A stretch of DNA of 64,000 nucleotides from Sphingobacterium sp. GTDB lineage: Bacteria > Bacteroidota > Bacteroidia > Sphingobacteriales > Sphingobacteriaceae. The stretch is from the NCBI GenBank assembly GCA_029239355.1, contig JAQZAZ010000004.1, positions 91,553 through 155,552 of the forward strand. The letters are read 5' to 3'. Position 1 is the first letter of the stretch. Each line of letters starts with the position of its first letter. The translations under genes and the position numbers were made by a program. The notes under the pieces were generated by a model. That model ran no database searches, was not told the origin of the DNA, and was given only the letters and a program-made list of their open reading frames with translations. This document shows positions 8,167 to 14,448 of this stretch, piece by piece.

Positions 8167-8517
8167 TCATGTAGCCTCCAACGAGCCTTGCTCTGATTCA
8201 GCAACTGCATTTCGTTGCGTCTGTTCACGCATCCAATTGTTAAAATCAATGTCCGAAGCGATATTAAATTTTTTGCGTAATCTGTTTTTACGCACTTGAA
8301 CGGCGCGTATCGTTACAGAAGTATATTCGGCAATATTTTTGGTCGAAAAATTCAGAAATGTCATGGCACAGAATTCCAGCTCACTGCTACGGATTTTGGG
8401 ATTTAATGCTTTCAATGATTCAACAAATTCAGGATACAATTCGTTGAATAAAGCCAAAAATTCTGCATTATTATTCTTGGCCAAAGTGATTAAGTTATTG
8501 AATTTGTCGGTTTCCAT
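8167..8517 (-). CDS. Stand-alone LuxR-type helix-turn-helix regulator (116 aa)
   Basis: IRSSELEFCAMTFLNFSTKNIAEYTSVTIRAVQVRKNRLRKKFNI resembles the C-terminal HTH of Bacteroidota LuxR-like regulators, here without TPR or sensor domains. Confidence 0.75.
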   Translation of the reverse strand: METDKFNNLITLAKNNNAEFLALFNELYPEFVESLKALNPKIRSSELEFCAMTFLNFSTKNIAEYTSVTIRAVQVRKNRLRKKFNIASDIDFNNWMREQTQRNAVAESEQGSLEAT

Positions 8518-8821
8518 TTTGCATATCGTTTTTCAGTAAATTGTTATATCTAATTCCGTCTTTCATTCGTAAGTATTACCGCTAGCGAGCATAAGATTAT
8601 ATTCAATTTTTAGCGGGAATATTAACTGCTAGCAATTAAACTCGATGGGGTTCAAACTCTCCCCATCGAGTCATCCAAATATATTATCATAGAACCTTCA
8701 CGCAAATTAGGTCCCAGCGACAATTCAGTAAAATCCGGTTTTTAAACTTCCACAAAAAACAGCTCCACCATGCTTTTGCTTCTGGAACTTCTCAACCAGA
8801 ATATCTTACCTGTCTTGCTGA

Positions 8822-8829
8822 CAAATATT
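8822..8829 (-). promoter_or_regulatory. Putative -7-like octamer AATATTTG for the HTH gene
   Basis: Resembles Bacteroidota TAnnTTTG; 32 nt downstream of the 8862-8883 element on the - strand. Confidence 0.4.
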
Positions 8830-8861
8830 GTCATTTGAAGAAAGAATAAAGAAAAAGCGCA

Positions 8862-8883
8862 TTTCACATTGATATCACATCTT
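8862..8883 (-). promoter_or_regulatory. Direct-repeat element 1 (AAGATGTGATATCAATGTGAAA)
   Basis: Two heptamers with 11-bp periodicity; same layout as 11075-11096 and 11295-11316. Confidence 0.6.
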
Positions 8884-9144
8884 CACAATACCCTGAAAGA
8901 CAAAGTTTTACAACTATTAAATCCTATCAATCTATAACACACAATAATGAAGAATAGAAAATCCGCTAATTAATTGAACTGTATTTTTCTTTGTTTCTCG
9001 CTGTTAAAATTCTCCGTTCGAAGAAATGATCTACCACTTTTACGCGCACAACACACAGTCTCTTAACACCTCATTTCAAGTATGTGCTTCGAATTCTTTG
9101 GTCAATCTCGCTGAGCGCGATAGTAAATTCGGGCAATATTTGAC

Positions 9145-9178
9145 AAAAAAAACTCGACAGGTATACAAACCTGTCGAG
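9145..9178 (-). terminator. Rho-independent terminator of the lipoprotein-peptide operon
   Basis: - strand CTCGACAGGTTTGTATACCTGTCGAG followed by TTTTTTTTG. Confidence 0.88.
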
Positions 9179-9219
9179 CAGTTGCTGCCTATGAATAGCA
9201 GCACTATGTAATAGGATAA

Positions 9220-9384
9220 ATTACCAGTTGATCGTGCGGTTGTCATCGTCCGCTTGATCCCATGATTGTTGCGGATCATTGCTGGTTGTACTTGCAGAAC
9301 CTGCAGCGATACCTTGCTCCAACTCAACATTTGTCGCCTCAATCTTTGGGCTGACATATATTCTTTTTGACTGTTTTGTTTTCA
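9220..9384 (-). CDS. Small EQGIAAGSA-motif peptide (54 aa), below the ORF-track length cutoff
   Basis: - strand ATG..TAA gives MKTKQSKRIYVSPKIEATNVELEQGIAAGSASTTSNDPQQSWDQADDDNRTINW*. N-terminal half aligns with the peptide at 11640-11831; strong terminator follows. Confidence 0.82.
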
Positions 9385-9438
9385 TTTCTTAGTATTTAAA
9401 CGCTGTTTTCAATTTATTGCTAAATTTTATGCTGATTA

Positions 9439-10983
9439 TTATGGACAAGCAATTTTCTTTCTACCGCTTCCAGCTCCGATCATTTTTGTAGCTCCCTGAA
9501 CGACTTGCGTAATTTTCACGTTGTTGGCTGTAGAGCTCCATGGCACAATGTTGAAAGAACCTTGGGTCAACACCAGAGGAAACAATTCGCCCCCATTGCT
9601 TTTGCTACCATACATAGATACTTCACCGGAACGACTAATGACTACCCGAATCACCGGATTGGAGGAAGTACCAGTCAGTGAATAAACTTGTGGAACGCTT
9701 CCACTACCATACAGAGATCCATCTGCAAATTGAACGTTTCTTGGCGCTATAGCGATTCCACTTTCAAATTGTATTTCCTGTGTTGCCAATTTCACACCGT
9801 TCACTTCCATATTAAAGGAGTTGTCCAATTGAAGAATATCAAATACAAATCCATAGTCTGCTCCCGGAGCAGTAAGGTCTTTGGTCACTACGTATCCTGC
9901 AGGCTGAGCCACACCATCTACAACAGCTCCTGATCCTGAAGCAGGATAGCTCCAGTTAAGATCCGCCCCACCAGTAACTGGTTGGGTACACGTTTTGAAG
10001 TTCAGATTTAAGTTGTAACGTTGTCCTGGCAATATTTGTAAACCGGCAACAGAAACATTTGATTTTGTCTCACCGTCGATAGTAATCGAGCCGAAGTTGA
10101 ACGAGCCATTTGACTCTCCTGGATGAATCAATACAGTAGGAACGCTGGATACTGTACGCAAGCCAGCTCCCAAAAGCGGGAATTGCACCGCAGCAGTTGA
10201 AGTCATACCGTTATAGGTTATTGTACCGTCTACCAGTTTCAAATTTGCACTCGCATGTGTCGGATTTATCGTTGGGGATACCAAACTTGTTATTGCTCCT
10301 GTCATTTCAGTCGCCATAGTCAAGTTTGTCGTCACTTCACTGTATTTATGTTTCAAGACAACATCCAGGTTGTTATCACCAGAATGAACTGTTAGATCTT
10401 TCTTGAAATACATAAGGTCTGCGCTAATGTTATCAAGGCTGGCATTACTTAGGGTGGTCTGCGCTGTTACAGCCGGAACCGATCCTGTGCTGTTCACGGA
10501 ATACGCAACAAAGGTATAAGTCTGTTCAGCATCCAAGGCGATTTCTTCGGTATTGTTATCCGAGTTTGTATAGGTTTTCTCGGTCACATACTCACCATTG
10601 CTGTTATAAACGACGATTTTATACTTAACATTAGCAGCCAAAGGCGTGATTTCTTCTGTAACAGCAGCGCGGTTTCCGGACGAGGCCCGCAGCAGGTTGC
10701 CACTTGTCGCGGACGACTCACTCGTCAACGTAGCTTCAAAAGAACTTGTACGGGTAAATGGTACAACGACAGTCTGTGCTGTAGCCGAAGAACTGGTTCC
10801 ATTACCTGCTTTCTTGGTAGTTACGATTGGGTTTTCCACGCCAAGTAACTGAATGTTAACACTAGCTTTGCCGCTGGCAGCTACACTATCCTTGCTTTCT
10901 TTACAGGAATACAAAGATCCGCAAATCAGAGCTGATAGCGCAAGAGCACTCCAACTCTTCTTTATTTGCACTTGTAGATTCAT
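9439..10983 (-). CDS. Fimbrillin-like secreted lipoprotein (514 aa)
   Basis: Signal and lipobox SALALSALICGSLYSC; KYKIVVYNSNGEYV...QTYTFVAYSVNS and ADLMYFKKDLTVHSGDNNLDVVLKHKYSEV segments parallel those in 11847-13604. Confidence 0.75.
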   Translation of the reverse strand: MNLQVQIKKSWSALALSALICGSLYSCKESKDSVAASGKASVNIQLLGVENPIVTTKKAGNGTSSSATAQTVVVPFTRTSSFEATLTSESSATSGNLLRASSGNRAAVTEEITPLAANVKYKIVVYNSNGEYVTEKTYTNSDNNTEEIALDAEQTYTFVAYSVNSTGSVPAVTAQTTLSNASLDNISADLMYFKKDLTVHSGDNNLDVVLKHKYSEVTTNLTMATEMTGAITSLVSPTINPTHASANLKLVDGTITYNGMTSTAAVQFPLLGAGLRTVSSVPTVLIHPGESNGSFNFGSITIDGETKSNVSVAGLQILPGQRYNLNLNFKTCTQPVTGGADLNWSYPASGSGAVVDGVAQPAGYVVTKDLTAPGADYGFVFDILQLDNSFNMEVNGVKLATQEIQFESGIAIAPRNVQFADGSLYGSGSVPQVYSLTGTSSNPVIRVVISRSGEVSMYGSKSNGGELFPLVLTQGSFNIVPWSSTANNVKITQVVQGATKMIGAGSGRKKIACP

Positions 10984-11033
10984 TTCTTTAATTAGTTTGA
11001 TGATGAATAAATATTTTAATTGTTAATCGGGAG

Positions 11034-11041
11034 CAAATATT
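11034..11041 (-). promoter_or_regulatory. Putative -7-like octamer AATATTTG for the 10983 gene
   Basis: 33 nt downstream of element 2 on the - strand. Confidence 0.4.
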
Positions 11042-11074
11042 GCGATAATTTCTCATAACGAAACTACACATAAC

Positions 11075-11096
11075 TATCACAGATATATCACATCTT
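11075..11096 (-). promoter_or_regulatory. Direct-repeat element 2 (AAGATGTGATATATCTGTGATA)
   Basis: Perfect TGTGATA-N4-TGTGATA reading toward the - strand lipoprotein gene. Confidence 0.65.
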
Positions 11097-11294
11097 AATA
11101 TTTGAAAAAATTTCTAAAAAAATTAAATAAATAAATATACTAGAAAACATATATCAACAAATAAAATATAAAAGCTTTTTAAAAACAGTATTTTAGACTA
11201 GAAGTAAATTCACACTATCACGAAAGAAATAGAATGGAAAGTTTGGAGAAAAGCCTATGTAAAACAATAATAATCTGATTATCAAATAAATACA

Positions 11295-11316
11295 AAAGTG
11301 TGATACCAATGTGATA
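11295..11316 (+). promoter_or_regulatory. Direct-repeat element 3 (AAAGTGTGATACCAATGTGATA)
   Basis: Perfect TGTGATA-N4-TGTGATA reading toward the + strand peptide/lipoprotein operon. Confidence 0.65.
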
Positions 11317-11348
11317 TCTGTATTTTAAGGATTCTTTGTGTTGTCTAC

Positions 11349-11356
11349 TATCTTTG
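11349..11356 (+). promoter_or_regulatory. Putative -7 element TATCTTTG
   Basis: Matches TAnnTTTG; 32 nt downstream of element 3. Confidence 0.5.
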
Positions 11357-11639: not shown

Positions 11640-11831
11640 ATGAAAAAAAGAACTGAAAAAAACATCTACCTAAGACCCGCCATCGAGCGATTACAGGTAG
11701 AGATGGAACAAGGTATTGCCGCGGGCTCTGCCGTAAATCCAGGCGTAGACGACGGTGGATTCACACCGGGCGGCAGTGAGATCAAAGATCCCAGCGCAGG
11801 TACCGATAATGGCGAATGGTGGACACCGTAA
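11640..11831 (+). CDS. Small EQGIAAGSA-motif peptide (63 aa)
   Basis: MKKRTEKNIYLRPAIERLQVEMEQGIAAGSAVNPGVDDGGFTPGGSEIKDPSAGTDNGEWWTP; paralogue of 9220-9384; 15 bp upstream of the lipoprotein gene. Confidence 0.85.
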   Translation: MKKRTEKNIYLRPAIERLQVEMEQGIAAGSAVNPGVDDGGFTPGGSEIKDPSAGTDNGEWWTP

Positions 11832-11846
11832 TTTATAACCTTACAC

Positions 11847-13604
11847 ATGAAAAGAACAATGTTTAAATTTACAAGAACAACAATATCATTCGCTATGGTT
11901 CTCTTATTGATAGCCTCTTCCTGCAGTAAGGACAGCGAATCTATGCCCGTCGAAAACAAGACAGACGGTATCACTTTTAAAGCCTTGGGTGCCGAGTTTG
12001 CACAAAGCCCCGTTACGAAAGCCCAAAATAATCGGACAAGCAGTCCCATTATTGCCGTTGAAGAAATTCAATCCGGCCCATTTACAATCACTGCTGAACT
12101 ATCCGAAGACCTAAGCACCACTTCACAGCCTTCATTAAAAGCAGGCACGAATGTGAAAGCTGCCGTACCATTTGCCACTGAGGTAAAATATCGGGTTGTC
12201 GCTTACCAACTTGATGGCACTTACATCGACCAGGCGATCGGTAGCAGCGCCCAGCCAAACGCCGTGATGTTTTCCGGACAGCTAACAGCAGGACAGACTT
12301 ATAAGTTTGTAATTTATTCACTAGGATCTGCTACGGACGCACCACCAGCAGCACCAACTTCGAACATCAATGCTGCCGGAGACCTAAGCAAAGCACTGAC
12401 ATTGACCTTTGACTCATTCGAAGAGCAAGGTGCCGACTTTATGTATGCACTTGTAGAAAAGGAAATCGAAGCTACCGGGCAACCTACAGCTTTAGCAGCT
12501 ACTTTGCAGCATAAATTTTCCAAAGTAAGCATTCAGCTGCACACGGCAGATGCAACAGGGACATTTGGCACAAGCAACTATGTCAAGGGAGGATATTTAT
12601 CCGAAACTCCTGTTAATGCCGAAGTATCCAATGCAGGAGGCCTAAACAAAAAGTCGTCCATAGACCTCAGTACAGGGGCAGTCATTGGCGGCGAGGCCGC
12701 AACTCCTTTTCGCGTCTTAGGTATTAATGCAACAGCCAAGTCGTATATCCTGAATACAGCTGCGACCACTGGTACGACCAGTTTTGCTGTCGCAATTGAC
12801 GCAGGAAGTATTAAAATAGGAAATGATGTCAATACAAGAGTCACTCCTTTTGAATTTACAGCGAGTGCATTAGAACCGGGAAAAGCTTATACACTTCGCA
12901 TCCGTTTGAACAGCGACCGTTATGTCAATGCGGCTGGAGCAACTCGTACGGCAAACCAGCCTGATGCCCGCTATGCTGTAATCGGCGGTTACCGCTGGGA
13001 TCGCTATAACCTGGGTGTAGCAAATGTAAACCCGGCGACCAATAATCCAGATGCCGTTCCTTCCGTACAAGCACTATACGGTAATTACTATCAATGGGGC
13101 CGTCAAGTACCTGTAGCAAATGCATACAGTGGCGACGGTGCCATCGCAGGCTGGAATACAACACCTGCAGCTGATGGTTCCTGGAATAATGGTACTGCGG
13201 CTGCTCCTGTGAAAGCTGCTGTAGATCCATGTGGTTTGGGTGATAGAATACCTAGTCAAGCTGAATATACGCGTTTAGGAAATTCGACCCGCCATACCTC
13301 CATTGGAAACTGGACGGCTTTTAATGGTAACGCCACAGTTGGGCTATCTGACTTTACGGCCGCACATATTATGACCAGTAGAAAGAGCAGTGATGTTAAA
13401 TTAAGCTTCCCCGCAAATGGTCACAGAAGTCCAACAACAGGAGCCCAACTTGTCCGCCAAAGCTCCGCAATTTATTGGCTAAATACCGCATTCGGTGGCA
13501 ATGATTATGCGTTACATGGACGTGGATTCGTAAATGGTTCTTGGGATACCTCGAATTATCTTAAAAATGCGGGCTATCCAGTACGTTGTATCCAAGATAA
13601 ATAA
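11847..13604 (+). CDS. Fimbrillin-like lipoprotein with C-terminal FISUMP-like (Fibrobacter succinogenes paralogous) domain
   Basis: Lipobox MVLLLIASSC; KYRVVAYQLDGTYIDQ...YKFVIYSLGS and LAATLQHKFSKVSIQL; C-terminus NYYQWGRQ...DPCGLGDRIPSQAEYTRLG...GYPVRCIQDK. Confidence 0.8.
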   Translation: MKRTMFKFTRTTISFAMVLLLIASSCSKDSESMPVENKTDGITFKALGAEFAQSPVTKAQNNRTSSPIIAVEEIQSGPFTITAELSEDLSTTSQPSLKAGTNVKAAVPFATEVKYRVVAYQLDGTYIDQAIGSSAQPNAVMFSGQLTAGQTYKFVIYSLGSATDAPPAAPTSNINAAGDLSKALTLTFDSFEEQGADFMYALVEKEIEATGQPTALAATLQHKFSKVSIQLHTADATGTFGTSNYVKGGYLSETPVNAEVSNAGGLNKKSSIDLSTGAVIGGEAATPFRVLGINATAKSYILNTAATTGTTSFAVAIDAGSIKIGNDVNTRVTPFEFTASALEPGKAYTLRIRLNSDRYVNAAGATRTANQPDARYAVIGGYRWDRYNLGVANVNPATNNPDAVPSVQALYGNYYQWGRQVPVANAYSGDGAIAGWNTTPAADGSWNNGTAAAPVKAAVDPCGLGDRIPSQAEYTRLGNSTRHTSIGNWTAFNGNATVGLSDFTAAHIMTSRKSSDVKLSFPANGHRSPTTGAQLVRQSSAIYWLNTAFGGNDYALHGRGFVNGSWDTSNYLKNAGYPVRCIQDK

Positions 13605-13842: not shown

Positions 13843-14448
13843 ATGGGAAAGATAACGGATCATGATGTGGCAGCACTTGTATCAAGAAGGATAACCGAAC
13901 TTATTGATTTAACAGATTTGCCATTGGAAGGTTTAGCAAATTTTACGGGATTATCCTTTTCAACCCTACGAAGCGCCATCAAAAAGTCCTCATCACTTTC
14001 CGTTGATAGTTTCGCAAGGCTCTGTACACCATTCTCCATTTCACTTTCGGATTTTTTCAATTCAAAAAAGCAATTGTCGCTCAAAACGAAGGACCTCCCG
14101 GAATTGGTCAAGTTTAAGGCGATATTTTTATCTTCTTACGCAGAGCCGCATTCGAAGGAGAGACCGAAGTCCAAACCGGAAGGGATCAATGCCCACCTCA
14201 AGCAGCAGCGGAAATTTCTTGCGCAGCTGATCTATACTTCTGACTACTTTTTAACCGCACGGACAATTGATCAAATCGCAACTGACCTGGAGGAGACACA
14301 TCACATCGTGATCAGGCCCGAACGCCTATATGCACTACTCAAGAAATATGTCGGTCTTGAGCTCTTGGAGAAAAAAGTTTTACCTCGAACAGAGCGCAAG
14401 CCGGACGATTCGCGCAGGCCCTACCTCTACTTTAAAAAGGCTGTATAG
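13843..14448 (+). CDS. XRE-type helix-turn-helix transcriptional regulator
   Basis: LPLEGLANFTGLSFSTLRSAIKKSSSLSVDSFARLCTPFSISLSDFF; C-terminal winged-helix-like segment. Confidence 0.75.
   Translation: MGKITDHDVAALVSRRITELIDLTDLPLEGLANFTGLSFSTLRSAIKKSSSLSVDSFARLCTPFSISLSDFFNSKKQLSLKTKDLPELVKFKAIFLSSYAEPHSKERPKSKPEGINAHLKQQRKFLAQLIYTSDYFLTARTIDQIATDLEETHHIVIRPERLYALLKKYVGLELLEKKVLPRTERKPDDSRRPYLYFKKAV

Follow-up and report, generated by a model that had tools for sequence, protein, structure and literature searches.

The Pho box bound by PhoB is built from 7-bp direct repeats with an 11-bp period, and the sites of MalT are directional. In Streptomyces, the regulators of the SARP/SARP-LAL type (PimR) recognize a 22-nt box in which two heptamers, in some cases three in tandem, are separated by 4-nt spacers, and bind cooperatively upstream of the -35 element (PMC5930380). 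The LuxR activators of Eggerthella (DadR) are anchored in the membrane by 12 transmembrane (TM) helices and answer specific small substrates (PMC9734109). Few operators are known for the numerous one-component regulators of the Bacteroidota: the proteins of the BT3442 family and DUF6377 are of unknown function in this phylum, the single paper found on BT_3442 describes it just as a TPR protein (PMC2954219), and a literature search found no paper on a family of TPR-TM-HTH regulators or its operator.

The DNA analyzed in this study is a window of 64,000 nucleotides (the whole stretch of sequence) from a Sphingobacterium genome, whose nearest relative found was S. prati. Three 22-bp elements of the general form TGTGATA-N4-TGTGA(T/A)A are present in the window, and a direct check confirmed the positions and strands that a first-pass annotation had given for them. 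Box 1 (8862-8883, minus strand, AAGATGTGATATCAATGTGAAA) consists of the heptamers TGTGATA and TGTGAAA with a 4-nt spacer and is located upstream of a gene encoding an HTH-only protein. Box 2 (11075-11096, minus strand, AAGATGTGATATATCTGTGATA) contains two perfect heptamers upstream of the operon of a fimbrillin-like lipoprotein, with a degenerate third heptamer (TGTGTAG, 11064-11070, minus strand) in 11-bp register, and box 3 (11295-11316, plus strand, AAAGTGTGATACCAATGTGATA) contains two heptamers upstream of a peptide/lipoprotein operon. The three units share the tandem element, as had been observed, and the element is rare. A scan of the window with up to three mismatches identified three box matches compared with 0.16 expected, and none of the shuffled sequences reached three. 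Within the whole 5.99-Mb genome, TGTGATANNNNTGTGA is found four times and its reversed control is absent; the combination of box and promoter geometry occurs at exactly three sites, all of them inside the window. A loose box (two mismatches, geometry ignored) gave 53 genomic matches versus 35 in the control and therefore mostly reports noise. The fourth genomic copy of TGTGATANNNNTGTGA (C22:15746), upstream of a gene encoding an uncharacterized 360-aa membrane protein, was set aside because it has no octamer at 32 or 33 nt.

The promoter geometry is defined by putative -7 octamers downstream of the boxes: AATATTTG at 8822-8829 (minus strand), 32 nt from box 1, AATATTTG again at 11034-11041 (minus strand), 33 nt from box 2, and TATCTTTG at 11349-11356 (plus strand), 32 nt from box 3. 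All three fit (A/T)ATNTTTG, a variant of TAnnTTTG, the -7 consensus of the Bacteroidota (PMC7366714). The near-fixed gap between box and octamer that had been proposed for the window also holds in orthologous loci: for 63 non-redundant boxes (one mismatch or none), all octamers within 51 nt are located at 32 or 33 nt or 11 nt to either side. The orientation of the box relative to the gene is constant across the syntenic loci. With respect to sigma-ABfr promoters, which have TAnnTTTG at -7 and TTTG near -33, most sites have the octamer at the fixed distance and the -33 place is T-rich, with an exact TTTG in about one third of the sites.

The lipoprotein gene behind box 2 (9439-10983, minus strand) encodes 514 aa that match no Pfam or NCBIfam entry, and the protein is called fimbrillin-like on account of its lipoprotein signal, length, and context. 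Its operon apparently includes a gene for a 54-aa peptide (9221-9385, minus strand) with an ELEQGIAAGSA motif and a C-terminal W. The operon behind box 3 encodes a 63-aa peptide with a MEQGIAAGSA motif (11640-11831, plus strand) and a 585-aa lipoprotein (11847-13604, plus strand) with weak fn3 and FISUMP-domain matches below the cut-off. A 201-aa XRE-like protein is encoded further along the plus strand (13843-14448), and its relative in genome G045 (57% identity) also has a box. The predicted targets are fimbrillin-like lipoproteins, IAAGS peptides, and, from the loci of relatives described below, the regulators themselves. The two peptides belong to a family of 50-70 aa (Y..P.I....E.GIA[AS]GS, often ending near W) that has no Pfam match and no meaningful NCBIfam match; in many Sphingobacterium loci its members are paired with fimbrillin-like lipoproteins, often beside a TPR-HTH regulator. 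At two other loci (L174:7588-7868 and L175:7094-7374), fimbrillin paralogues lie beside a response-regulator gene and a TAGCAAAAATTTGCTA-like palindrome replaces the tandem box, suggesting that the control circuit was exchanged.

The gene behind box 1 (8167-8517, minus strand) encodes HTH116, a 116-aa protein with a NarL/LuxR-type DNA-binding domain. Pfam GerE and Sigma70_r4_2 match it below the cut-off only. In a structural comparison based on an AlphaFold2 model of the domain (pLDDT 87), the top matches were all of the NarL/LuxR type (NarL, DosR, LiaR, and VraR; Z 6-6.7 over 57-69 residues), and Foldseek returned probabilities of about 1 but E-values of 0.05 or worse. The modeled domain is predicted to have the tetrahelical GerE/NarL (LuxR/NarL-type) fold. 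HTH116 consists of the HTH domain only, with no membrane anchor, and displays 66-79% identity (about 75%) to the last ~100 residues of proteins of ~490 aa in its own and related genomes. These full-length relatives contain an N-terminal hydrophobic signal-like segment, a TPR region (Pfam TPR_12 above the cut-off), one TM segment (hydropathy peak of 2.2-3.2 at about residue 337), a long helix/coil, and the C-terminal HTH, an order of domains that predicts a one-component regulator with an extracytoplasmic sensor and a cytoplasmic HTH. The TPR part is similar to peptide-binding TPR proteins including Rap/NprR, a resemblance at the level of the fold only. Matches to the BT3442 family (NF053779; 28.8 and 26 bits against a curated cut-off of 940, with a weak match of the HTH region at E 4e-6) and to Pfam DUF6377 (33.2 and 20.2 bits against a gathering score of 36.7, with the TM/coil region at E 5e-8) remain below the thresholds, and the regulators appear to be distant relatives of DUF6377 at most.

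The genome that contains the window encodes one full-length family member (C265), a C-terminal piece located at a contig edge (C179), and a remote paralogue (C64). The first-pass annotation had suggested that the local HTH protein is a member of the circuit. This suggestion is strengthened by its family, which co-occurs with the box and whose recognition helix changes together with the box bases, but HTH116 itself is not likely to be the primary regulator; that role probably belongs to a full-length, membrane-anchored TPR-TM-HTH relative encoded at another place in the genome. The box upstream of the C265 regulator (L112:5796-5860) is degenerate and, relative to the intact counterpart in S. 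prati, its spacer is shortened by ~7 nt, so that it represents a natural spacing variant. No TGTNNTA tandem was found upstream of the family-B regulator (C64 and its orthologues). At these loci (L158 and L160-L163), peptide and lipoprotein genes follow the family-B TPR-HTH regulator genes, and a conserved block, CAAGAGTAGTYCTTGGGGGG, is located 32 nt upstream of CATGTTTG. Since family B carries this block instead of the tandem, the box rule is not valid for every paralogue.

Compared with the described systems, the locus shares two heptamers with 4-nt spacers and direct repeats of 11-bp period with the SARP boxes, and 7-bp direct repeats of that period with the Pho box. However, SARP regulators are cytoplasmic proteins with an OmpR-like winged helix, whereas the candidate regulator here is of the NarL/LuxR type, membrane-anchored, and found in Bacteroidota with TAnnTTTG promoters. 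The candidate likewise differs from PhoB in its domain fold, and the box is located well upstream of the promoter octamer. MalT has the same combination of a C-terminal LuxR-type HTH and a TPR-like region (with a weak Pfam TPR_MalT match here), but its ATPase module is not seen in the regulators, where a TM segment and a TPR region, presumably periplasmic, take its place. DadR is also a membrane-anchored one-component activator with a C-terminal LuxR-type HTH, but the regulators in this study combine a single TM segment with a TPR domain. Overall, the architecture consists of tandem heptamers resembling SARP and Pho boxes, which a membrane-anchored regulator of the LuxR type apparently recognizes.

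Within the genus Sphingobacterium, the box together with the octamer is present in 19 out of 93 genomes, with a reversed control of 0 in all of them. Across the order, 18 of the 400 genomes scanned contain the tight pattern; all 18 belong to Sphingobacterium, and the reversed control never occurred. Orthologues of all three units (the HTH gene, the fimbrillin-like lipoprotein gene, and the peptide/lipoprotein pair) have the box upstream in the syntenic loci of relatives, which is the conservation to be expected of a shared regulatory element. Box 1 is kept in 15 Sphingobacterium loci, and the peptide/lipoprotein promoters of relatives often contain three to four tandem heptamers. The box also precedes genes for full-length regulators and for an XRE relative of 207 aa, as well as peptide genes at remote locations in two genomes. 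The regulator family (at least 69% identity) is found in 16 of the 19 box-carrying genomes of the genus and in 20 out of 93 genomes overall, a co-occurrence with a Fisher p of 1e-11 that is uncorrected for phylogeny, genome relatedness inflating such simple p-values. The remaining three genomes (G150, G016, and G063) carry the box without a close regulator. In G150, G067, and G016 (L147, L148, and L149), a box with correct geometry is located upstream of an SDR-family gene, possibly by chance because two of these genomes (G150 and G016) have no close regulator.

When GTDB genomes were searched with the HTH alignment, homologues of the regulators were recovered from Chryseobacterium, Epilithonimonas, a Weeksellaceae bacterium, and Bacteroides neonati, among others. 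A total of 34 sites with TGTNATA tandems of period 11 and an octamer at 32 or 33 nt were found in 28 loci outside the genus, compared with an expectation of ~1.4 sites for each pair of gaps and with two sites in the reversed control; tandem periods of 8-10 and 12-15 yielded 0-2 sites in these loci. About one third of the regulator loci outside the genus lack a box within 5 kb. The identity of heptamer bases 4-5 corresponds to the recognition helix of the regulator encoded at the same locus: GA is found with RAVQ[VI]RKNR, AA or CA with QPQS[IV]QTRK or S[VIL][AS]AV[QH]LRK, AG with QHR[ST][VI]QQKKYR, and GG with TPSAVQNRK. Among 50 HTH positions tested, the largest excess of mutual information with operator class is at positions 75, 69, and 71, all within the recognition-helix segment. 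Operator class changes six times on a tree of the TPR half of the proteins (HTH excluded) versus 19.3 times when shuffled, although the independent changes are too few for an informative independent-pairs/sign test and the covariation is at the level of clades. Several operator classes occur within Chryseobacterium, and the association is therefore with the regulator and not with the species. Taken as sequence evidence, the case for the TPR-TM-HTH family as the binder of the box is strong but clade-level. The box of B. neonati is located at the head of a DUF3575/DUF3868 cluster that ends in a putative fimbrillin-like lipoprotein gene, and in Chryseobacterium the box precedes regulator genes and genes for secreted QVGINT-type proteins. 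Chryseobacterium arachidis contains an HTH-only relative together with a divergent peptide/lipoprotein operon (L190:4959-5309), suggesting horizontal transfer of the module.

The 22-bp element is very probably the operator of this family of membrane-anchored one-component TPR-TM-HTH regulators, and the proposal of a shared regulatory element with the local HTH family in its circuit is supported by these comparisons. The winged helices of OmpR, PhoB, and SARP proteins classically bind tandem heptamers with 4-nt spacers (for SARP, PMC5930380), and 11-bp repeats are less usual for a LuxR-type HTH, as would fit an OmpR/PhoB-type response regulator that binds the box and has the HTH and TPR proteins merely as co-regulated targets. 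Such a regulator is quite improbable given that the operator bases track the TPR-HTH protein of the same locus, with several classes inside Chryseobacterium; furthermore, the listed loci showed no OmpR-type gene among their conserved neighbors, and the confinement of the sites to 19 of the 93 genomes is unexpected for a general OmpR factor. It is very improbable that the 201-aa XRE-like protein is the binder, even with the box upstream of its relative in G045 and small XRE-like proteins near regulators in Chryseobacterium as well: G061, G149, and G026 have intact boxes and no homologue, which rules it out as a general binder, and only remote homologues are present in G070 and G025. A site of the Crp/Fnr type is scarcely credible. 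TGTGA is identical to the E. coli Crp half-site, but the half-sites are direct and not inverted in all orthologues, and the classes TGTAGTA and TGTCATA lose TGTGA while keeping the spacing.

For the TPR-TM-HTH family as the binder, the position of the sites leads us to infer that the factor occupies the tandem half-sites and activates transcription. Each TGTNNTA heptamer would carry one DNA-binding domain, the domains being arranged head-to-tail between about -61 and -44, directly upstream of the -33 region, and the 11-bp repeat would place the heptamers on one face of the DNA. The bound regulator would most likely recruit the primary-sigma RNA polymerase at TAnnTTTG. The regulators would control fimbrillin-like surface lipoproteins, the IAAGS peptides transcribed with them, and, at many loci, also the regulator genes themselves (autoregulation). 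HTH116, the soluble HTH-only relative, keeps the recognition helix and is therefore expected to occupy the same boxes, where it may amplify expression or compete with the membrane-bound form. Its retention of the recognition helix without the TPR and TM parts, together with autoregulation that is compatible with feedback, also leaves a minor but real chance that the family represses from the box or that the HTH-only protein competes in a dominant-negative manner and reduces expression; against this, the whole box lies upstream of the -33 region, with both distance and orientation fixed, where activators usually bind. A speculative and rather unlikely reading is a peptide-sensing switch for surface fibers, in which the periplasmic TPR domain of the membrane-anchored regulator would sense the co-regulated IAAGS peptides or fimbrillin subunits, the HTH-only protein would act on the tandem operators as a soluble feed-forward or brake arm, and the family would have diversified across the Bacteroidota through joint changes of two heptamer bases and the recognition helix. 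The analysis yields a predicted operator for a family that spans Sphingobacterium, Chryseobacterium, and Bacteroides, together with the promoter geometry and a partial recognition code. It ties this widespread and little-studied group to fimbrillin-like proteins and to further surface or secreted proteins, and would allow the regulons of uncharacterized TPR-HTH proteins to be predicted from the sequence.

A conserved RNA element of two hairpins with covarying stems is located in the leader of the HTH gene (8624-8737, minus strand); it was identified in an alignment of 15 sequences and has no match in Rfam. In the alignment, 94% of cells pair compared with 33-46% when slid, and two-sided changes are present in six of the 23 pairs. 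The second hairpin is terminator-like, suggesting putative attenuation of the HTH gene, and the linker between the hairpins, TATATTTG, fits a -7 element, which makes a second promoter possible. In one genome (L146, G063:C1:2714000-2723000), the HTH coding sequence is missing, whereas its box, promoter, and leader are retained.
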